Shown piece after piece: positions 2,077 to 35,373 of a stretch of DNA of 62,798 nucleotides. A program made the position numbers and the translations under genes. The DNA is from Bacteroidota bacterium. GTDB taxonomy: Bacteria; Bacteroidota; Bacteroidia; Cytophagales; Cyclobacteriaceae. A model generated the notes under the pieces. It was given only the letters and a program-made list of their open reading frames with translations, made no database searches and had not been told where the DNA came from. The stretch covers positions 1 through 62,798 of the forward strand of contig JAQCLE010000011.1 of NCBI GenBank assembly GCA_027592755.1. Reading direction: 5' to 3'. Numbering within the stretch: the stretch's first letter is position 1; each line of letters opens with the position of its first letter.

Positions 2077-2278
2077 AACTTCCTAGCATTAATTAGCAAC
2101 TTCAAATAAAGCTAAAAATGCAATTAATTACTAAAAAACAGGACTTTTCGTATGGCTCTCAATAACAATGATTTAGCATCTATCACTTTGATTCTCAATT
2201 AAAACGAAAGAAAATTTGATTTTTATTCCATTCAGTACCGTGGTTATTACTTTAACTTTCACGAGATTAAACGTTAAT

Positions 2279-3592
2279 ATGGCCGTCAAACAGGTATCAT
2301 TCATTGTCATAATATTGATAGCCTCGGGTATTTTTACATTTACAATCTCGCGGCTGGTTGGTTTTTTCAAACTGACAAAACCGGCTTATCGAATCACTGA
2401 CATATCAAGGCGAATCAAAATATTGCTGTCTGTGGCATTTGGCCAAACCAAAATCCTAAGAAGACCGGTCGTTGGAATAATGCATGCGCTGGTTTACTGG
2501 GGCTTTATGGTCATCACAGTCGGCACTGTTGAAATGATCATCGATGGCGTTCTCGATACTGAAAGGGTTTTGTCAGATACGGGCTTTTTTTATACGCTCA
2601 TTACGGCATCTGGAGATATTTTAGCTGTAATGATCATCGGTTCTTGTCTTGTTTTCCTTTTTAGGAGGCACTTCATTAAGGTAAAGCGCTTTAACGGGAT
2701 TGAAATGACGAAAGGATCTACTATTGATGCTACAATCGCCCTTTTAATGATCCTACTGCTTATGGTTTCATTGATAGGAACGAACGTTGGCTACCTGGCC
2801 CAAAACCCTAATGGATATGCAGGTATGTTTCCTATGAGTACTTTACTGGTTGCTTTCGTTGCTCCAAAAGATCTCGATTCGCTATATCTATTTACAGAAG
2901 TAAACTGGTGGGCACACGTGATGTTGGTGTTTATTTTTGCCAATGCACTCCCTTACTCAAAGCATTTTCATGTTTTCATGTCAATGCCAAATGTGTTTTT
3001 AACCAGGCTTGAACCACTTACGAAACTTAGTAACATGACGTCTGTCACCAATGAGGTTAAAGCCATGATGAATCCTGAAACGGCATTTGCACCTCAGACA
3101 GAAGGTATCCCGGGCCCATCAAGATTTGGCGTAAAAGATGCTGAGGATGTTACATGGAAGAATTATCTCGATTCACTCACTTGTACAGAATGTGGTCGGT
3201 GTACTTCTGTTTGTCCAGCCAATATCACAGGGAAAAAACTAAGTCCCCGGAAAATATTCGTTGATCTAAGAAAAAGGATGAGTGAGAAAGGCCCTGGTTT
3301 GATAAAAGAGGGAATAGGTTTTTCTGATAGCAAATCTCTTTTGGGCGATTATATATCAGCTGAGGAGCTTTGGGCCTGCACCACCTGCAACGCCTGCGCC
3401 ATGGAATGTCCTGTCAATATTGATCACCCTTCTTTGATAATTGATATGCGCAGGTATCTGGTATTGGAGGAATCGGCGGCTCCGGCAGATTTGAATAATA
3501 TGTTCGCTAATATTGAAAATAACGGTGCTCCATGGCCTTTTCCCCAATCTGCAAGACTGGACTGGGCACAAAGCATAGAAATGAAATCATGA
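2279..3592 (+). CDS. Membrane-bound 4Fe-4S oxidoreductase (HdrE/NarI-like fused to ferredoxin domain)
   Basis: The 437-residue protein starts best at ATG 2279 (MAVKQVSF); a longer frame from 2216 adds an unlikely leader. The first 250 residues hold about five hydrophobic segments resembling the nitrate reductase gamma / HdrE cytochrome b fold, with candidate heme histidines in IMHALVYWGF and SKHFHV. The C-terminal part carries two 4Fe-4S motifs, CTECGRCTSVCP near residue 302 and CTTCNACAMECP near residue 366. The downstream gene overlaps it by ATGA and encodes the CCG-domain partner, so the two likely form a membrane quinone-linked oxidoreductase like HdrED. Such pairs are common in Bacteroidota; the physiological substrate is not known, and an actual heterodisulfide is unlikely in a bacterium of this type. 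Confidence 0.85.
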   Translation: MAVKQVSFIVIILIASGIFTFTISRLVGFFKLTKPAYRITDISRRIKILLSVAFGQTKILRRPVVGIMHALVYWGFMVITVGTVEMIIDGVLDTERVLSDTGFFYTLITASGDILAVMIIGSCLVFLFRRHFIKVKRFNGIEMTKGSTIDATIALLMILLLMVSLIGTNVGYLAQNPNGYAGMFPMSTLLVAFVAPKDLDSLYLFTEVNWWAHVMLVFIFANALPYSKHFHVFMSMPNVFLTRLEPLTKLSNMTSVTNEVKAMMNPETAFAPQTEGIPGPSRFGVKDAEDVTWKNYLDSLTCTECGRCTSVCPANITGKKLSPRKIFVDLRKRMSEKGPGLIKEGIGFSDSKSLLGDYISAEELWACTTCNACAMECPVNIDHPSLIIDMRRYLVLEESAAPADLNNMFANIENNGAPWPFPQSARLDWAQSIEMKS

Positions 3593-25660: not shown

Positions 25661-26878
25661 ATGCCTGAGAATTATAACAGACTTTTTTACGGTAGTTGTT
25701 TCGCATTGATTACTACCGCACTTTCCTTTAGCATCAGGGCCGGCATTCTACCACAGTTGGGAGTTGAACTTGGCCTATCAGCAGAACAATTGGGCCTCAT
25801 CAACTCGATGTGGTTTTTCGGCTTTCCGATTTCTATGGTCATTGGTGGATTGGTTTATCACACAGTTGGTGGGAAAAGGATTATGCAATTTGCTTTCTTT
25901 GCCCATGGCGTAGGAATCATAATGACAATTTATTCAGGAAGTTACATTGGTTTACTTATTTCTACGTTCCTGATTGGCCTTGGTAACGGATGTACAGAAG
26001 CTGCCTGTAATCCTATGATTGCCGATGCCTACCAGGGAAACACCATGAGTAAGATGATGAATCGATTTCACATGTGGTTTCCTGGTGGTATCGTTATCGG
26101 AAGCCTAGTCTCCAAATTCATGACCGATGCTGGTACCACTTGGGAAGCACAGATTTGGGTCATTATTATTCCAACAATAGTTTATGCGTATTTATTCTTT
26201 GGACAGGATTGGCCAAAAGCAAAAACTGCGGAGGAAGCTTCAATTGTTGGGAACTTGAAAGCAATGTTCTCGCCATTGTTTATTTTTATGATGGTCTGCA
26301 TGGCTTTAACGGCGATTACAGAGTTTGGACCACAGCAATGGGTCGGTCTTATATTGGCAAAGAGTGGTGCTCAGCCCATGATAATATTGGCGCTTGTGAC
26401 TGGTTTAATGGCTGTTGCCCGATACTTCGGAGGAGAGGTTGTTCACAAGTTCGATCAAACGGGTGTCCTACTTGGATCTGCTGTTTTGGCAACTATTGGA
26501 GTTTATCTATTTAGTACCCAAACCGGCGGCATGGCTTATGTAGCTGCAGTCTTTTTTGCCCTGGGTATTGCTTATTTCTGGCCAAATATGATCGGCTTTA
26601 TTGCAGACAAGATCCCATCGAGTGGCGCTTTTGGTATGTCAATAGTTGGAGCCGTAGGCATGTTTTCGACTTCAATCTGGCAACCAGTTATTGGTGGTTG
26701 GATCGATTCTGATAAAGCCGAAGCAGCTGATATGGGACTAACAGGCGACGAGCTGGAATTAGTTTCAGGTCAAGCCACTCTGGGAACAATGGTGGCTTTT
26801 CCGGCAGTATTAATTGTATTGTTTACTATACTTTTATTCTGGGTCAAGAAGAGAAAAGAAAGTGCTTCAGCAGACTAA
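25661..26878 (+). CDS. MFS transporter
   Basis: A 405-residue protein with about 12 membrane helices (RAGILPQLGVELGLSAEQLG after helix 1, GLGNGCTEAACNPMIADAY in helix 4, the conserved WFPGGIVIGSLVSKF). The overall pattern is that of sugar- or nucleoside-type MFS permeases of Bacteroidota, but the substrate cannot be assigned. It is monocistronic: a hairpin terminator follows, and a TATTTTG box near 25626 may be its promoter. Confidence 0.85.
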   Translation: MPENYNRLFYGSCFALITTALSFSIRAGILPQLGVELGLSAEQLGLINSMWFFGFPISMVIGGLVYHTVGGKRIMQFAFFAHGVGIIMTIYSGSYIGLLISTFLIGLGNGCTEAACNPMIADAYQGNTMSKMMNRFHMWFPGGIVIGSLVSKFMTDAGTTWEAQIWVIIIPTIVYAYLFFGQDWPKAKTAEEASIVGNLKAMFSPLFIFMMVCMALTAITEFGPQQWVGLILAKSGAQPMIILALVTGLMAVARYFGGEVVHKFDQTGVLLGSAVLATIGVYLFSTQTGGMAYVAAVFFALGIAYFWPNMIGFIADKIPSSGAFGMSIVGAVGMFSTSIWQPVIGGWIDSDKAEAADMGLTGDELELVSGQATLGTMVAFPAVLIVLFTILLFWVKKRKESASAD

Positions 26879-26928
26879 AAGAAAGTCGGAAAGCGAATCC
26901 AAGCGTTAAAATCGCTTATTACAATAGG

Positions 26929-26978
26929 CAAAAGATACTGGACGTTGAAAGTTCTAATATCTTTTGTCTTTTTGTTTT
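26929..26978 (+). terminator. Rho-independent terminator after the MFS gene
   Basis: A perfect 9-bp inverted repeat, CAAAAGATA (26929-26937) and TATCTTTTG (26958-26966), is followed by a T-rich tract. It lies between convergent genes and could also serve the minus-strand CAP gene. Confidence 0.75.
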
Positions 26979-26988
26979 AATCTAAGAA

Positions 26989-27942
26989 TCACTCAACGAT
27001 CACAACAATCCCTGTAGCTACTATTTTACCTACCGTACTAAAAGAGGTTGTCCCAGCTGGGTTCTTTTTATCTACCATAGTTTGTATATAGTAAGAGCCT
27101 TTTTTATCGAATTTGAACGGGATATTATACTTACCACCTTCCGTGCGGTAACCAATAATGTCCCAGGGGGCATACTGTAGTGTCGTCTCGTCAGTGTAGT
27201 CGGGATAGCTGCTCTGGCGATTTACCTGAGCCACTGCCATCGCCTTGGGAGGTTTTTCATAATAAGCGACAGCATAGTAAAGAAAATACCCCGGTGCTGG
27301 AGTTACTTCCACGGTGAACTCCTCACCTGAACGCACTTTCGCTGGGACAGGTCCCGTAACAGCATAACGATCAATAAATTCCTCGTAATACCGGAACTCA
27401 GCTGCGGTCATGTGACAACCAAGACCAACGAAATTATGATACTTGTCAATGACGGTCTGTTTATGGCCATCATTGGGCGCTATTTCAGCCATAAACTGGC
27501 CATGGAGATTAACCATCAATTTAGCAAAACTTTGAGGTGACCGGTCAAACGAACCTCCTTCCATCCAGGTAGCGGAAGCATTTTCCGTTACGTGATCTGT
27601 GCCACCACCAAAAGCATACCGCTGATAGGGTTTTTCTCCCCTGGTATTCCAATGACCTCTAAAACCCTGTTCTGCGGCTTCTTTACATTGTTTATTTGCG
27701 ATCCGACTTGCAAGAATGTCCAACTGCACCGGCGGTGCCTTGTATTGTTTCCTACTTTTATTAACTACTTCTAATTGAGCAAGCTTGAGCAGGAGCATTT
27801 CCCTGGAATCTTTATAGTCCGCTAATCTCATTTCTCTATCATTTAAATCGACGTAATACTCAATATCATTTGTGGAATACTGTGCAAACAACAGGGCCGG
27901 TATCAATTCAAATAATACAAACAGAGAGTAAAGAGGTTTCAT
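26989..27942 (-). CDS. Exported CAP-domain (SCP/PR-1-like) protein
   Basis: About 317 residues from ATG 27942 (MKPLYSLFVLFELIPALLFA), which gives a proper signal peptide; the longer TTG-initiated frame to 27978 is less likely. The CAP fold shows its usual residues: GHWNTRGEKPYQRY with the first His, TENAS with the Glu, and NDGHKQTVID with the second His, followed by NFVGLG. After residue about 200 a beta-sandwich-like C-terminal domain follows (TGPVPAKVRSGEEFTVEVTP). Bacterial CAP proteins are exported and of unclear function. It is the last gene of a likely operon with the ATP-grasp and HD genes. Confidence 0.85.
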   Translation of the reverse strand: MKPLYSLFVLFELIPALLFAQYSTNDIEYYVDLNDREMRLADYKDSREMLLLKLAQLEVVNKSRKQYKAPPVQLDILASRIANKQCKEAAEQGFRGHWNTRGEKPYQRYAFGGGTDHVTENASATWMEGGSFDRSPQSFAKLMVNLHGQFMAEIAPNDGHKQTVIDKYHNFVGLGCHMTAAEFRYYEEFIDRYAVTGPVPAKVRSGEEFTVEVTPAPGYFLYYAVAYYEKPPKAMAVAQVNRQSSYPDYTDETTLQYAPWDIIGYRTEGGKYNIPFKFDKKGSYYIQTMVDKKNPAGTTSFSTVGKIVATGIVVIVE

Positions 27943-27974
27943 AGTGCTTGATTTAAAATGATGATTGTTTCTCT

Positions 27975-28832
27975 TCAAATCTTGGTTCGAAGCGCTGTTT
28001 TAAAATTATTTCTCAATTGAATATCCATAAGAAAAAGATCTGGTTCGATTAATTCGAGTTCCATCAATTGGAATTGGCCATTAATTATGATGCCATCTAT
28101 ACGTGAATAAAGAAGATCCTGATCAATTGACTGCATGATTTGTTTCACTTGCTTTAGGATGGAATCTTCTGGAGGACGCAGCCTAATTGTTCCACCAAAA
28201 TCATTCTGTGTTCTAAAATCACCTGGCGCTGGCATTTTATGCACAGAATGGGAAAATTTTTTGTTAAGAAATATGAACGACCATTCTCCCGAAGTTATTA
28301 TGGCAGGTTGGAACTTTTGGATTAGTAAATCACAATTTTTTGCAAGGTGCATTAATTCCTTGGCCATATGAGGAGAAATATCAGGAGTCAGCCTATAAAG
28401 CTTATAAGCAGTCGCAGAAATAGCCGGTTTGATAATGATTTCTTTCCATCCCGATTTCGCAAAAATGCTTTGTAAATCAAGGGTTTCATTTTTCCTGTGA
28501 AACATAGTTGGAAGAACTGGAACACCCATAAGTTTTAAATCATTAAGGTAAAATTTGTGATGGTTCCACCTCAAAATATGAATGGGATTATAAACCATTA
28601 CTCTCAGGTCATCAAGTTTATCAAGCCAATTAAGAAACTGATCAATTTTCAAATGATAATCCCAAACACTGCGAATAAGGACAAGTTTAAATTCTTCCCA
28701 ATCCACTCTAGAATCGTCCCAAACAACCGGCTTCACATGCAGATGATCTACATGAAGGCTACTCAATAACCGTCGCTCGCTATCAATGAGGTCTGGGATT
28801 TTATTACAGGTTACCCAGGCTATATCATACAT
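27975..28832 (-). CDS. ATP-grasp domain protein (RimK/DcsG-like)
   Basis: A 285-residue protein. It has the N-terminal pre-ATP-grasp region (MYDIAWVTCNKIPDL, then WDDSRVDW and LIRSVWDYHLK), the nucleotide-binding strand WKEIIIKPAISATAYKLYR with the conserved Lys, LLIQKFQPAI, and the C-terminal metal-site strand QLMELELIEPDLFL with its acidic residues. Relatives ligate an amine to a carboxylate, as in peptide modification or small-molecule synthesis. The substrate here is unknown. It lies 16 bases after the HD-domain gene and 33 bases before the CAP gene, all on the same strand. Confidence 0.82.
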   Translation of the reverse strand: MYDIAWVTCNKIPDLIDSERRLLSSLHVDHLHVKPVVWDDSRVDWEEFKLVLIRSVWDYHLKIDQFLNWLDKLDDLRVMVYNPIHILRWNHHKFYLNDLKLMGVPVLPTMFHRKNETLDLQSIFAKSGWKEIIIKPAISATAYKLYRLTPDISPHMAKELMHLAKNCDLLIQKFQPAIITSGEWSFIFLNKKFSHSVHKMPAPGDFRTQNDFGGTIRLRPPEDSILKQVKQIMQSIDQDLLYSRIDGIIINGQFQLMELELIEPDLFLMDIQLRNNFKTALRTKI

Positions 28833-28847
28833 GGCTGGTTATTTTGA

Positions 28848-29396
28848 TTAGCCAACAAATTCATGGTGCCAGAGTTCAAAAATCTGCTGCTGCCGGGAAC
28901 CGTAGTTCTTAATCTTTTCGCGTACTTCCCGGACAGAGCTCTCATTGAATATTTTAGATGGGTTTTTTGAGAAGAAGAGATCAGAATAGCTGATTACTTT
29001 GTCTTCAATTTGCTTACAAACAATATCTTCAAGAGGAAGTTTCAAACCGGATTCTTCAATTTCATCTTTTGTAATACCCCCGATACCAAAATGATTTTCT
29101 GCTATCCTCGCGTGGCTTGCTAGTCCTTCGGCCTCCAGTATTTTTTTTCCTTCCTTAATATGCATTACGTAAGGTAAACTTCCTCGACAATTAATATCAG
29201 CCGCATTCACCCTAATTATTCCAATGTCATGCAACATAGCTGCCTCCTCAACGAATTGTTTTTGTTCGTTTGAAAAGCCCATGTGATCAGCAATCTTCAA
29301 AGCTTTAGCCGTTACCAATGTCACATGAACAATATAGTAAGGATAAACCGGTGAATTCGGAGGGATGTATTTATGAATGATGGAGAAATAATCCAT
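28848..29396 (-). CDS. HD-domain phosphohydrolase
   Basis: A 182-residue single-domain protein. The metal-binding motif is AAMLHDIGIIRVNA (the HD pair), with further His residues in VHVTLVTAKAL, YVMHIKEGKKIL and ARIAENHFGIGG. It lacks the GYP motif of cyclic-di-GMP phosphodiesterases, so nucleotide or another phosphate-ester hydrolysis is the most that can be said. It is the first gene of a three-gene run with the ATP-grasp and CAP genes. Its start is 19 bases from the start of the divergent RDD gene. Confidence 0.85.
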   Translation of the reverse strand: MDYFSIIHKYIPPNSPVYPYYIVHVTLVTAKALKIADHMGFSNEQKQFVEEAAMLHDIGIIRVNAADINCRGSLPYVMHIKEGKKILEAEGLASHARIAENHFGIGGITKDEIEESGLKLPLEDIVCKQIEDKVISYSDLFFSKNPSKIFNESSVREVREKIKNYGSRQQQIFELWHHEFVG

Positions 29397-29415
29397 TGAC
29401 TACCTTTATAGCATA

Positions 29416-29832
29416 GTGGAAGCAAAGTATAAATATGCTGGTTATTGGCCAAGAATGTGGGCTTACAATGCTGATCTTCTCATTCTTTTATTGATTTATT
29501 ATATGCTTTCCTGGGTTATTCCTGTTGATAAGATACTGTACATAACATGTTTTGGAGTCACACTTTTTTATCACGGTCTTTTTGAAAGTATTATCTGGCA
29601 AGCTACTCCGGGGAAAAAGCTGCTCAAAATTAAAGTTGTAAATAAAATCGGTGAAGATCTTACCCTCCCATTAGCGCTCCTTCGGTTTATTCTTAAAATC
29701 TTGTCCTTGGCGCTGCTATACTCCGGTTTCATTATGATAGGGTTTACCAAAAAAAACCAGGGTCTTCACGACATTTTGATCGGGTCGTTGGTCATCTATG
29801 AAAACAATTCCCCTGACGTGGAAATTGTTTAA
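29416..29832 (+). CDS. RDD-family membrane protein
   Basis: A 138-residue protein starting at GTG 29416; the RDD pattern begins nine residues in, and no ATG fits better. The family Arg-Asp pattern appears as YAGYWPRMWAYNADLLIL, with WQATPGKKLLKIKVV between helices and NQGLHDILIGSLVIY at the end. Three membrane helices are predicted. Function is unknown; some RDD proteins have been linked to ion exchange. It is divergent from the HD gene with almost no intergenic space. Confidence 0.88.
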   Translation: MEAKYKYAGYWPRMWAYNADLLILLLIYYMLSWVIPVDKILYITCFGVTLFYHGLFESIIWQATPGKKLLKIKVVNKIGEDLTLPLALLRFILKILSLALLYSGFIMIGFTKKNQGLHDILIGSLVIYENNSPDVEIV

Positions 29833-29925
29833 GCCAATAAATCATGTTTTAAGTTTTGTGTTATATGTACGACAGAACGTTACTTTTAATTAAACGCTCA
29901 GTCCGCGATCTGTTAAATTTGGATA

Positions 29926-31257
29926 ATGGCCAAAGTAGTAATAATTGGTAATGGAATTTCAGGAATAACCGCTGCCAGACACATTCGGAAACAAAGCGAT
30001 CTTGAAATTGATGTGATTTCGAGCGAAACGGATCACTTCTTCTCGCGAACAGCCCTAATGTACATCTATATGGGGCATATGAAATTTGAACACACCAAGC
30101 CCTATGAAGATTGGTTCTGGAAGAAAAACAACATCAACCTCATCAGAAATCGAATCAATCAAATCAATACAGAAGACAAGAAGCTCCATTGTGAAGATGG
30201 GAAGGAGATAAATTATGATTATCTGATTCTGGCGGTAGGATCAAAGTCCAATAAATTCGGATGGCCCGGTCAGGAGCTTGAAGGTGTTCAGGGATTGTAT
30301 AACTTCCAGGATCTTGAACAAATGGAATCGCATTCAAATAGAATTTCCAAAGCTGTTATTGTTGGTGGTGGATTGATAGGTATTGAAATGGCTGAGATGT
30401 TCCTTTCCAGAAAAATTGATGTAACATTTTTAGTTCGGGAAGAGAATTTCTGGGACATTGTTCTCCCAAAAGAAGAGGCACAAATGATCGACAGGCATAT
30501 TTTAAAACACCACGTTGACCTAAAACTCTCAACCGAACTGCAAGAAATACGACCTGACGATCAGGGTCGCGTTGGTTCGGTAGTGACTAACAAGGGTGAA
30601 TTTATTGAATGCCAGTTCGTTGGTCTTACAGTTGGCGTAAGTCCAAATATTGATTTTTTAAAAGACTCATCAATCGAAACAGATCGCGGAATTTTGGTTG
30701 ATGAATACCTTAGGACCAATATCCCTAATGTTTATGCACTTGGTGATTGTGCTCAATTCAAAAATCCCTTGCCTAACCGCCGACCAATTGAGCAAGTATG
30801 GTACACCGGCCGCATGATGGGAGAAACCGTTGCACAAACTATTTGTGGAAAAGAAACAGTCTATGAACCCGGAAATTGGTTCAATTCTGCTAAATTCCTT
30901 GATCTAGAATATCAAACTTATGGGTATGTTTGGCCCCGGTTGAAAAAAGAAGAGGAAACCTTCTATTGGGAGAAAACTAAAGAGAATATTTCATTTAGGG
31001 TCGTGTTTCACTCAAAAACCAGGCATGTTCTAGGCTTCAATGTACTTGGGATGCGCTTGCGACATGAGATCTGTGACCAATGGCTTAGCCAGCACGTAAA
31101 GGTTGATTATGTAATCAACAATCTTCAGAAAGCGAATTTCGATCCGGAATTTTTCAAACATTATGAAGGTGACATCCAGAAGGCATTTAATAACCAATTC
31201 CCTGAAATGAAAGTGAGCGTTAGGCAGAAAGGTTTTTTGGAGAAAATACTCCGATAG
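29926..31257 (+). CDS. NAD(P)/FAD-dependent oxidoreductase
   Basis: A 443-residue two-dinucleotide-binding flavoprotein. The FAD site is VVIIGNGISGITAARHIRK at the N-terminus, the NAD(P) site is VIVGGGLIGIEMAEMF (about residue 145), and the second FAD motif is NVYALGDCAQF (about residue 267). It has no redox-active CxxC, so it resembles nitrite or rubredoxin reductase-type and AIF-like oxidoreductases. About 70 extra C-terminal residues (LGFNVLGMRLRHEICDQWL onward) form its own dimer-type domain. It lies 100 bases upstream of a type III polyketide synthase gene on the same strand, so a shared role is possible. Electron acceptor unknown. Confidence 0.9.
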   Translation: MAKVVIIGNGISGITAARHIRKQSDLEIDVISSETDHFFSRTALMYIYMGHMKFEHTKPYEDWFWKKNNINLIRNRINQINTEDKKLHCEDGKEINYDYLILAVGSKSNKFGWPGQELEGVQGLYNFQDLEQMESHSNRISKAVIVGGGLIGIEMAEMFLSRKIDVTFLVREENFWDIVLPKEEAQMIDRHILKHHVDLKLSTELQEIRPDDQGRVGSVVTNKGEFIECQFVGLTVGVSPNIDFLKDSSIETDRGILVDEYLRTNIPNVYALGDCAQFKNPLPNRRPIEQVWYTGRMMGETVAQTICGKETVYEPGNWFNSAKFLDLEYQTYGYVWPRLKKEEETFYWEKTKENISFRVVFHSKTRHVLGFNVLGMRLRHEICDQWLSQHVKVDYVINNLQKANFDPEFFKHYEGDIQKAFNNQFPEMKVSVRQKGFLEKILR

Positions 31258-31359: not shown

Positions 31360-32451
31360 ATGGCCCATATAACTTCAATAGGTACTGCCAATCCCGGAAA
31401 TGCAATCGCTCAGGGTAAAATCGCTGATTTCATGATCAAGGGGCTCGGCTTGAGCAAACAGGAGAGTCAGAACCTAAGGGTTCTCTACAGGGCTACAGGC
31501 ATACATAGCCGTTACTCGGTAATTGCCGATTATGCTCTAAACGGTAAACCCTACGAATTTTACCCTAAAACACCAGGCTTGGAACCGTTCCCTTCAATTA
31601 AGGCAAGAATGGATTATTTCCAAAAATCAGCATTGGATCTTTCAATTCAGGCCATCGACAATTGTTTCAATGGTTCATGCGATCTCAACATTACACATTT
31701 AATTACGGTGAGTTGTACCGGGATGTATGCTCCTGGCCTTGACATCGAAATAGTAACCAAACTGGGTCTGTCACCTAATATTGAGCGAACCGCAATAAAT
31801 TTCATGGGTTGCTATGCAGCCTTTAACGCCCTGAAAATTGCCAACCGTGTGGTCGAAACAAATACAAATGCAAAAGTACTGATAGTCTGCGTTGAGTTGT
31901 GTAGCCTTCATTTTCAGAAAACTCCGGATAAAGAAACCGCTCTTGCAAATTCTCTATTCAGCGATGGTGCAGCTGCTGTTTTGGTTCAGTCTGAATCAAA
32001 TAATGAATTTGGCCTTAAATTGAACAAATTCCATTGTGATATAGAACCCAAGGGAAAAAAGGAAATGACATGGAGCATTGGCGATTTTGGATTTGAAATG
32101 CGACTGTCTGATAAGGTCCCCAAAGTAATTGAATCAAAAATCAAAAGACTGACAGGAAGCCTGTTGAATCAACTTAATCTCTCAATTGATGACATCGAAT
32201 TCTTTGCAATTCACCCCGGTGGGAAGCGCATCCTTGATGTGGTAGAGGAGCAATTGGAAATTCCACATCAAAAAAATTTACATTCATTTAAGATCTTAAG
32301 AGATTATGGCAATATGTCCTCTCCAAGTGTCTTATTTGTGTTGGCCTCTATTCTAAAATCTCTAAAGTCCAGCGACAGGAATAAGAACGTACTAAGTTTC
32401 GCTTTTGGGCCCGGCCTGACATTGGAGAGTATGTTATTGAAAGTGGTTTAG
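31360..32451 (+). CDS. Type III polyketide synthase (chalcone synthase-like)
   Basis: A 363-residue thiolase-fold protein with the type III PKS triad in place: Cys in NFMGCYAAFNAL (about residue 151), His in FFAIHPGGKRIL (about residue 287) and Asn in RDYGNMSSPSVLFVL (about residue 321). The C-terminal GFGPGLTLE loop appears as AFGPGLTLESMLL. Such enzymes extend an acyl-CoA with malonyl units to alkylpyrones or alkylresorcinols. No methyltransferase gene follows, unlike some bacterial type III PKS loci; the FAD oxidoreductase upstream is the only candidate tailoring enzyme. The product is unknown. Confidence 0.9.
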   Translation: MAHITSIGTANPGNAIAQGKIADFMIKGLGLSKQESQNLRVLYRATGIHSRYSVIADYALNGKPYEFYPKTPGLEPFPSIKARMDYFQKSALDLSIQAIDNCFNGSCDLNITHLITVSCTGMYAPGLDIEIVTKLGLSPNIERTAINFMGCYAAFNALKIANRVVETNTNAKVLIVCVELCSLHFQKTPDKETALANSLFSDGAAAVLVQSESNNEFGLKLNKFHCDIEPKGKKEMTWSIGDFGFEMRLSDKVPKVIESKIKRLTGSLLNQLNLSIDDIEFFAIHPGGKRILDVVEEQLEIPHQKNLHSFKILRDYGNMSSPSVLFVLASILKSLKSSDRNKNVLSFAFGPGLTLESMLLKVV

Positions 32452-33034: not shown

Positions 33035-34168
33035 TCATGATAACCTGTTTTTATAATCATCATACCCAAACTTCCGGACAAGTTCAAAAGTTGAGTCAAC
33101 CTTCCATATACCAATAGATGGGTGCGCCACACCATTAAAAGTTGTGGTCTTTACCATGGTATAATGAATCATGTCCTTAAAAATTACGCGATCACCGACC
33201 CTAAGCTCATTATCAAAAGAATATTCTTCAATAAAATCCCCTGCCAAACAGCTCAACCCTCCTAATCGGTAAGTTGGTTTCCCTGGAATTAAATTCTTTG
33301 AAGCCCCAACCACATTTGGTTTATATGGCATTTCCAGGCAATCCGGCATGTGACAAGTAAAAGAAACATCAAGAATGGCCGTTTTAATGCCGTTATTTTC
33401 AACAATATCGAGGACGGTAGAAATAAGATCACCTGTCTCCCATGCAAAAGCACTACCTGGTTCAAGAATAACCTGCAGACCATGTTTTTCTCTGAAATTT
33501 TTTAGGATGCTTACTAAGTGGGGAATGTCATAGTCCTTTCTTGTCATCAAATGCCCTCCACCCATATTCACCCATTTGATTTGGTTAAATAAATGTCCAA
33601 ATCTATGCTCAAACGACTCAATAGCTTTTTCAAGTGCATAAGAGGAAGATTCACATAATACATGAAAATGAAGACCTTCAATATCATTAGGTAAACCATT
33701 TTTAAGATGTTCTGCCGTGACCCCAAGCCTGGAATGCGGTGATGCGGGATTGTAAAGGCTGGTAAAGACATCGGAGTATTCCGGATTTACCCTTAGACCA
33801 CAGGAAATTTTATCTCCAATCACATCTTTGAATTGATGGAATTGGTTTAGGGAATTAAAAGTGAGGTGACTTGAATAAATGGTCAAATCCTTTAGTTCAG
33901 CATCAGTGTATGCAGGGGCATAGGTATGAGCCTTTGTTCCCATCTCTTCAAAGCAGAGTCTTGCTTCATTGAGAGAACTGGCAGTCGCACCACTGAAATA
34001 TTCCTTGACTATTGGAAATACACTCCACATTGCAAAACCTTTGAAAGCAAGGATAATCTCTACCTCCGCACTATCAGCTACGCTTTTGATTATTCCAAGA
34101 TTTCGTCGAAGTAAAGTTTCGTCAAGAACATAGCATGGGGAGGAGACTTTTGAATAGTCAATGGCCAT
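33035..34168 (-). CDS. nspC: Carboxynorspermidine decarboxylase
   Basis: A 377-residue PLP enzyme of the alanine-racemase-fold decarboxylase group. The PLP lysine lies in EIILAFKGFAMWSVFP near the N-terminus, and the C-terminal cysteine/aspartate region is SFTCHMPDCLEMP. It removes CO2 from carboxynorspermidine or carboxyspermidine, the second step of the alternative polyamine route. The gene overlaps the dehydrogenase of the same pathway (its ATG shares bases with the upstream TAA), so the two steps are translationally coupled. A spermidine-type product is the usual one in Bacteroidota; that is inference. Confidence 0.94.
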   Translation of the reverse strand: MAIDYSKVSSPCYVLDETLLRRNLGIIKSVADSAEVEIILAFKGFAMWSVFPIVKEYFSGATASSLNEARLCFEEMGTKAHTYAPAYTDAELKDLTIYSSHLTFNSLNQFHQFKDVIGDKISCGLRVNPEYSDVFTSLYNPASPHSRLGVTAEHLKNGLPNDIEGLHFHVLCESSSYALEKAIESFEHRFGHLFNQIKWVNMGGGHLMTRKDYDIPHLVSILKNFREKHGLQVILEPGSAFAWETGDLISTVLDIVENNGIKTAILDVSFTCHMPDCLEMPYKPNVVGASKNLIPGKPTYRLGGLSCLAGDFIEEYSFDNELRVGDRVIFKDMIHYTMVKTTTFNGVAHPSIGIWKVDSTFELVRKFGYDDYKNRLS

Positions 34169-35373
34169 TAGTCCATTTCAAGATCAACATCGTGAAGTTC
34201 ATGCCACGGCAAACCGTGCATTCCTAATTCCTCCATAAAGGGATCAGGATTAAACTCTTCAACATTAAAGACACCCGCCCCAGACCATTTCCCAGTCAAT
34301 ACCATCATAGCACCAATCATCGCGGGTACGCCGGTGGTGTAGGAAACACCCTGTGCGCCAGTGTCGCTGTATGCATCCTTATGCTTACAGTTATTATAAA
34401 CGTAATAGGTTTTTTCTACGCCGTCCTTTATTCCCCAGATGCGACATCCTATAGACGTTTCACCAACATAATTCTCACCCAACTCACCAGGGTCTGGTAA
34501 TACTGCTTTTAAAAATTGCAGAGGAACAATTTCACGACCTTCATATATCACCGGTTTAATGCTTGCCATCCCAATATTCTGAATTACCCGAAGATGGGTC
34601 AGATATTCATCGCCGAAAGTCATCCAGAACCTTGCCCTTTTCAGTGTTGGAAAATTCTTAACAAGAGATTCCAGCTCCTCATGGTATATGAGATAAGAAT
34701 TTTTAGGTCCAATATTCGGATAACTCAAAGATTTGAGGACAGAATGTGGTTCCGTTTCTATCCACCGTTTGTTCTCAAAGTATTTCCCTTTCTGGGTAAC
34801 CTCCCTAATGTTGATCTCCGGATTGAAGTTAGTTGCAAATGCCTTGCCATGGTCGCCGGCATTGCAATCAACAATGTCAAGGTGGTGAATTTGATCGAAA
34901 TGATGCTTTGCCGCATAAGAAGTAAACACACCCGTAACCCCGGGGTCAAAGCCACAACCAAGCACAGCGGTTAAACCGGCATCCTTAAACCTATCCTGGT
35001 AAGCCCATTGCCATTTGTACTCAAACTTAGCCTCGTCTCTGGGTTCATAATTGGCAGTATCCAAATAATTGACACCGGTTTCAAGGCAAGCATCCATGAT
35101 GGTAAGATCCTGGTAAGGTAAAGCCACATTGACAACAATATCCGGTTTAAAATCATTGATCAATTCCACCAATTCGGAAACTATGTCCGCGTTGAGTTTG
35201 GCTGTGAGAATGTCTATCCCATATTTTTCGTGAATATCTTTGGCTATGACATCACATTTCGACTTTGTACGACTGGCTAGTAATATTTCTGTGAAAATAT
35301 CCTTTACCTCCGCACATTTGAAGGCAACAACCCGACCAACACCCCCGGCACCAATAATTAAAACTCTTGACAT
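34168..35373 (-). CDS. Carboxynorspermidine dehydrogenase (saccharopine dehydrogenase family)
   Basis: A 401-residue protein with the N-terminal Rossmann motif VLIIGAGGVGRVVAFKCAE and saccharopine-dehydrogenase features (VVNVALPYQDLTIMDACLE, LGCGFDPGVTGVF). Homologues named Lys1 or CASDH reductively condense aspartate semialdehyde with a diamine to form the carboxylated polyamine. The overlap with nspC settles this role against lysine metabolism. It is the first gene of the two-gene operon. Confidence 0.9.
   Translation of the reverse strand: MSRVLIIGAGGVGRVVAFKCAEVKDIFTEILLASRTKSKCDVIAKDIHEKYGIDILTAKLNADIVSELVELINDFKPDIVVNVALPYQDLTIMDACLETGVNYLDTANYEPRDEAKFEYKWQWAYQDRFKDAGLTAVLGCGFDPGVTGVFTSYAAKHHFDQIHHLDIVDCNAGDHGKAFATNFNPEINIREVTQKGKYFENKRWIETEPHSVLKSLSYPNIGPKNSYLIYHEELESLVKNFPTLKRARFWMTFGDEYLTHLRVIQNIGMASIKPVIYEGREIVPLQFLKAVLPDPGELGENYVGETSIGCRIWGIKDGVEKTYYVYNNCKHKDAYSDTGAQGVSYTTGVPAMIGAMMVLTGKWSGAGVFNVEEFNPDPFMEELGMHGLPWHELHDVDLEMD

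Follow-up and report, generated by a model that had tools for sequence, protein, structure and literature searches.

A genus-limited cluster of HD-domain, ATP-grasp and CAP-domain genes in a Cyclobacteriaceae bacterium

Introduction

In RimK, LysX and GshB, an FR...GG loop contacts the nucleotide and the acyl phosphate. The ATP-grasp protein described here has the ATP-grasp fold in common with these three enzymes and the FR...GG loop in common with RimK, although identity to them is 12–16% and a glutamine stands in its loop where RimK has asparagine. Its likeness to DcsG extends over full-length sequence and fold, and an ExExxEP segment occurs near the C-terminus of both proteins. However, its score lies far under the DcsG family cut-off, and it has an FRxQxxxGG loop that DcsG is without.

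HD-domain proteins are the second point of comparison. According to PMC8177086, the H..HD..H..H..D pattern is a sign of a dinuclear centre, the hydrolases YqeK and HD-GYP also have such centres, and the YxxE loop is a feature of PhnZ and TmpB that MIOX does not have either. A figure legend of the same paper gives HD phosphohydrolases, as a typical feature, an arginine three positions ahead of the first histidine (PMC8177086).

Here, we analysed a stretch of 62,798 nucleotides from Bacteroidota bacterium (family Cyclobacteriaceae; assembly GCA_027592755.1, contig JAQCLE010000011.1), which is called the window throughout. An initial annotation had singled out an HD-domain gene, an ATP-grasp gene and a CAP-domain gene in it as the best candidate for an undescribed pathway. 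Named relatives that came up in our searches, Agaribacillus and Parabacteroides, agree with the assignment to Bacteroidota. Our search of literature titles and abstracts found nothing on an HD/ATP-grasp/CAP set.

Arrangement of the locus

The three same-strand open reading frames (ORFs) were all found on the minus strand at the positions first given for them (Table 1). The gaps between them had been put at 16 and 32 bases. The second value is correct when the CAP start is taken as the inner ATG at 27942, and the first has to be changed, because the gap between the HD and ATP-grasp genes is 15 bases.

Table 1. Position and strand of the features at the HD/ATP-grasp/CAP locus in the window.
Feature	Position	Strand	Remarks
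CAP-domain protein, 317 aa	26989..27942	-	Pfam CAP; hydrophobic N-terminus
ATP-grasp protein, 285 aa	27975..28832	-	DcsG-nearest, RimK-like FRxQxxxGG loop
HD-domain protein, 182 aa	28848..29396	-	Pfam HD and ligand set
Gap separating the HD start from the divergent RDD start, 19 bases	29397..29415	.	in the sister, 187 bases
RDD-family membrane protein, divergent from HD	29416..29832	+	may or may not belong

We counted runs of at least three same-strand ORFs (each ORF at least 80 aa, gaps up to 50 bases). The window has five such runs, and a sample of 598 kb of its genome has 48. Because tight three-gene runs are common in the source genome, spacing alone is unremarkable; that of the HD, ATP-grasp and CAP genes is ordinary for this genome.

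Signals for transcription were also searched. TTTG/TANNTTTG is the promoter motif of the Bacteroidota type, and no match to it was found within 26800–29950. Promoter-like sites numbered 9 (9.8 expected) and terminator-like sites numbered 4 (2.6 expected), one of the latter lying just past the CAP gene (26918–26900). No promoter match stands out before the HD gene, and the terminator-like matches can be put down to chance. Since the HD and RDD starts are so close, an HD promoter would overlap the RDD coding region. Spacing and shared order are what point to co-transcription of the HD, ATP-grasp and CAP genes, which we consider quite probable.

Other genes of the window were recorded as well. 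The gene at 31360–32451 is type III polyketide synthase-like (DpgA model, 158.9 bits, below the cut-off of 425), and a pyridine nucleotide-disulphide oxidoreductase gene lies beside it on the same strand (29926–31257). A pair on one strand at 33035–35373, Orn/DAP/Arg-decarboxylase-like and saccharopine-dehydrogenase-like, resembles the carboxy(nor)spermidine route.

Gene order and selection in the sister species

In the one other genome of the genus that we examined, the same order, RDD(-), HD, ATP-grasp, CAP(+), was found on a single contig (L033), with gaps of 10 bases between the HD and ATP-grasp genes and 43 bases between the ATP-grasp and CAP genes. The HD gene is thus present in both genomes of the genus (2/2). 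Amino acid identity between window and sister is 75% for HD, 51% for ATP-grasp, 61% for CAP and 61% for RDD. Across these four genes, the two species differ at 56–59% of third codon positions and at 17–34% of first and second positions. The synonymous estimate was 2.0 for ATP-grasp; for HD, CAP and RDD it was saturated and not computable. We read these values as pointing to purifying selection on all four genes, with silent sites at or near saturation.

On either side of the four-gene block, the window and L033 have different genes, except for a lipocalin-like gene (45% identity), which lies 2–3 kb downstream of the CAP gene in both. A gene at the end of the L033 contig matches the window gene at 2216–3592, some 24 kb off.

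As a background for this conservation, we used 28 reciprocal best hits, including six on L033, and counted pairs by hand. Twenty tight directed pairs were obtained, from which we excluded the five with an anchor in the run (four kept, one not). Among the other 15 pairs, 11 were kept between the window genome and the sister, a sample too small to decide: nine came from L066 and L067, contigs fetched via window genes (9/9 kept), and six from contigs taken at even steps (2/6 kept).

Distribution of the three genes

Full-length relatives of the HD protein were found in two of 59 relatives, two of 390 family genomes and, with the window's own genome included, six of 395 phylum genomes. A seven-sequence HD profile matched three of 296 phylum genomes, the window's own again included. 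These counts leave out weak partial matches, namely G017, G486 and G786 among the 390 family genomes, G017 also among the 59 relatives and the 395 phylum genomes, and, in the profile search, 12 of the 15 genomes with a match. Several of the rows dropped from the profile search lie in frames of 194–209 aa, and these may be similarly sized, distant HD proteins.

The CAP gene has relatives in two of the 59 relatives and two of 335 family genomes. Among the 395 phylum genomes, only the window's own remained after one weak match was dropped; this match, in G406, lies outside the genus, scores 20.2 bits and covers part of the profile. No match was found in the plasmid collection. Full-length HD and CAP co-occur: they were found in the same two genomes, both among the 59 relatives and in the wider family draws.

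The ATP-grasp gene is present in 19 of the 59 relatives, and all 20 of its loci there were examined. We compared neighbourhoods of 10–14 kb (ORFs of at least 70 aa; BLAST E 1e-8), and found no HD or CAP relative near the ATP-grasp gene at 18 loci in 17 genomes outside the genus (L039–L056). The fetched stretches at L021 and L022 likewise contain neither. Three of the seven plasmid records with an ATP-grasp match were inspected, and no annotated HD or CAP gene was seen nearby in their incomplete gene tables. The neighbourhood comparison that the initial annotation had called for therefore turned out against it: the trio is rarely adjacent in relatives (0/18 ATP-grasp loci outside the genus have HD or CAP). 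Within the samples searched, the complete trio was found nowhere beyond the two genus genomes, and therefore perhaps goes back to a single gain event.

These results could also be caused by chance, a scattered ATP-grasp gene having received two unrelated genes beside it with which it shares no function. The gene order in the sister species would then simply not yet be broken. The frequency of tight runs in the source genome fits this explanation, as do the pairs often kept between the two genus genomes, small as that sample is, and the other neighbours that ATP-grasp and HD relatives have elsewhere. However, the four-gene block is constant while the genes adjoining it are not the same in L033 as in the window (the lipocalin-like gene excepted). 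We give chance neighbourhood an appreciable probability, though one clearly below even.

The CAP protein

The CAP protein had been described as an exported CAP-domain protein, and this description agrees with our results. Its Pfam CAP score is 25.3 bits, above the cut-off of 21.1, and from the hydrophobic N-terminus, seen in the window species and in the sister, we infer that it is exported. No solved structure was matched by sequence search.

The HD protein and its relatives before lptD

The HD protein scores 29.7 bits with Pfam HD, above the cut-off of 22, and the six ligands of the H..HD..H..H..D pattern (H24, H56, D57, H79, H102, D139) are invariant in 7/7 sequences. Judged by sequence, the protein would be dinuclear, and phosphodiesterase, phosphatase and oxygenase are all possible classes. 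The name HD phosphohydrolase, under which it was first listed, is right about the family, as the Pfam score and the six ligands indicate, but goes further on the activity than our results do. The column three residues before the first histidine reads Y,Y,L,L,L,L,L, so the arginine typical of phosphohydrolases is found in none of the seven; an arginine stands five residues before that histidine in two of the seven and six before in one, and in neither of the two genus sequences (0/2). Because the reported arginine is missing, ‘phosphohydrolase’ is unproven. The YxxE loop of PhnZ and TmpB, looked for in the ten residues before the first histidine, is absent from 7/7 HD sequences.

The protein could, instead of a hydrolase, be a diiron oxygenase in the class of MIOX, PhnZ and TmpB. 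Such an enzyme would have the six-ligand dinuclear motif seen in all seven sequences, and would agree with the departure from the arginine rule in the figure legend for HD phosphohydrolases (PMC8177086). However, the loop of PhnZ and TmpB is absent, although MIOX is without it as well, and the hydrolases YqeK and HD-GYP have dinuclear centres too (PMC8177086). We regard the oxygenase as improbable.

More specific models gave no assignment. TIGR00295 scored 41.4 bits (40.2 in a second scan) against a cut-off of 172.35, and PRK12703 scored 41.5 bits against a cut-off of 434; neither cut-off was reached, and the matches span most of the HD domain. In a control, TIGR00295 had matches in nine of 14 named genomes and exceeded the cut-off in two. 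No solved structure was matched by sequence search with the HD protein, and with the HD profile a single weak hit was obtained among solved structures, a 3'3'-cGAMP phosphodiesterase (E 0.2). Prediction of the fold from the single sequence was poor (pLDDT 40.2).

Relatives of the HD protein have a different partner. In the class members examined, they lie directly before the LptD gene on the same strand at 6/6 such loci. At five loci of class relatives (L034–L038), the HD gene is 43–90 bases before the LptD gene, which was recognised by Pfam at two of the five and by BLAST clustering at three. In Parabacteroides distasonis (WP_005858951.1; L146), an HDIG protein is encoded directly before lptD. 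The P. distasonis and class proteins are 35–43% identical to the window HD protein over nearly the whole length, and the five aligned class relatives have all six metal ligands, as the window protein does. The partner is LptD in P. distasonis and the class relatives, whereas it is the ATP-grasp and CAP pair in the window. The plasmid collection held seven records with an HD match, of which those of P. distasonis and Streptomyces fungicidicus were examined; the S. fungicidicus record is without LptD, and its protein aligns to the family profile with 99.6% probability. Our literature search for a link between the HD protein and LptD found none.

The ATP-grasp protein

The assignment to the ATP-grasp family stands. 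The Pfam GSH-S_ATP score of 21.9 bits is just under the cut-off of 23, and the fold is clear from three other results: the DcsG model (NF058666; 134.5 bits, below the curated cut-off of 360), a match to the DcsG structure (PDB 6jil, E 3.6e-17), and the predicted model (pLDDT 83.4), which superposes on 6jil with Z 24.9 and rmsd 3.1 over 277 residues. The same model gave Z 21.5–22.1 with RimK entries, 21.6 with GshB (1gsa) and 19.9 with LysX.

We found 15 positions to be invariant in 22/22 sequences: K93, K135, G182, E183, F206, R207, Q209, G213 and G214, and further R244, D246, E258, E260, E263 and P264. The FRxQxxxGG loop is present in all 22 relatives, with GDFRTQNDFGG as the window copy. GDFRSNxxxGG is the stretch of RimK that aligns to this loop around R207. 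Of the FR-N-GG pattern, F, R and the two G are kept in 22/22, and N is replaced by Q in 22/22. Near the C-terminus the window protein has ELELIEP, where we take RimK and GshB to have an E-N-SP ending.

Because the DcsG cut-off is failed and a RimK-like loop that DcsG is without has been kept, an acyl-phosphate ligase is the likelier activity. We consider it likely that the protein is a carboxylate-amine ligase. It looks like a member of a branch that has a common origin with DcsG and has retained a ligase-like loop.

That it makes D-cycloserine, as DcsG does, and that the locus is a source of a cycloserine-like antibiotic, is very hard to credit: DcsG is the top NCBIfam model and the top structure match, but the low score and the RimK-like loop that DcsG has not kept led us to reject D-cycloserine synthesis, and weaker evidence comes from the neighbours, since no gene of that pathway was recognised among the Pfam-scanned flanking proteins, which are part of the window ORFs (among them MFS, beta-lactamase2, RDD, oxidoreductase, type III PKS and decarboxylase).

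Elsewhere, genes for a NamZ exo-muramidase, a family 2 glycosyltransferase and a permease of the FtsX/MacB type are common to five of the 18 outside ATP-grasp loci, all from family relatives (L045, L046, L047, L048 and L051; Pfam was applied to the L045 copies only). Because the glycosyltransferase adjoins the ATP-grasp gene on the opposite strand, no function was drawn from this block. No common partner emerged when the neighbours at L039, L041, L022, L042, L043, L049, L050, L055 and L056 were scanned; at L040, L044, L052, L053 and L054, the comparison was by BLAST clustering only.

Conclusions

The explanation that we somewhat favour overall is a genus-level three-gene transcription unit with the following activities. 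One transcript would start upstream of the HD gene. The ATP-grasp protein, a ligase of the cytosol, would activate a carboxylate as an acyl phosphate and join it to an amine, like RimK, LysX and GshB. The HD protein would most likely be a cytosolic dinuclear metalloenzyme that acts on a phosphate-bearing or similar small molecule, and the CAP protein would be exported separately and would probably act at the cell envelope.

The undescribed pathway proposed at first fares unevenly: the order kept in the sister and the co-occurrence of HD and CAP agree with it, but the trio is rarely adjacent and its members have other partners elsewhere. We found no substrate shared by the three proteins, and their membership in one pathway is a guess to which we give a rather low probability. 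A more specific version, that HD and CAP joined an older DcsG/RimK-like ligase in a route new to the genus, appears quite unlikely. In such a route, the ligase would make an amide-linked product, the HD protein would trim or oxidise it, and the CAP protein would bind or place it outside the cell.

What the evidence supports is a small operon without proven joint function. The cluster is real, limited to the genus and composed of known families, and it is probably one transcription unit, but it is thin evidence for a new pathway. Two wider points are of more use than the trio, and both can be tested. An HD family that by sequence would be dinuclear lies directly before lptD in P. distasonis and five class relatives, and a scattered DcsG-related ATP-grasp branch has a RimK-like ligase loop.
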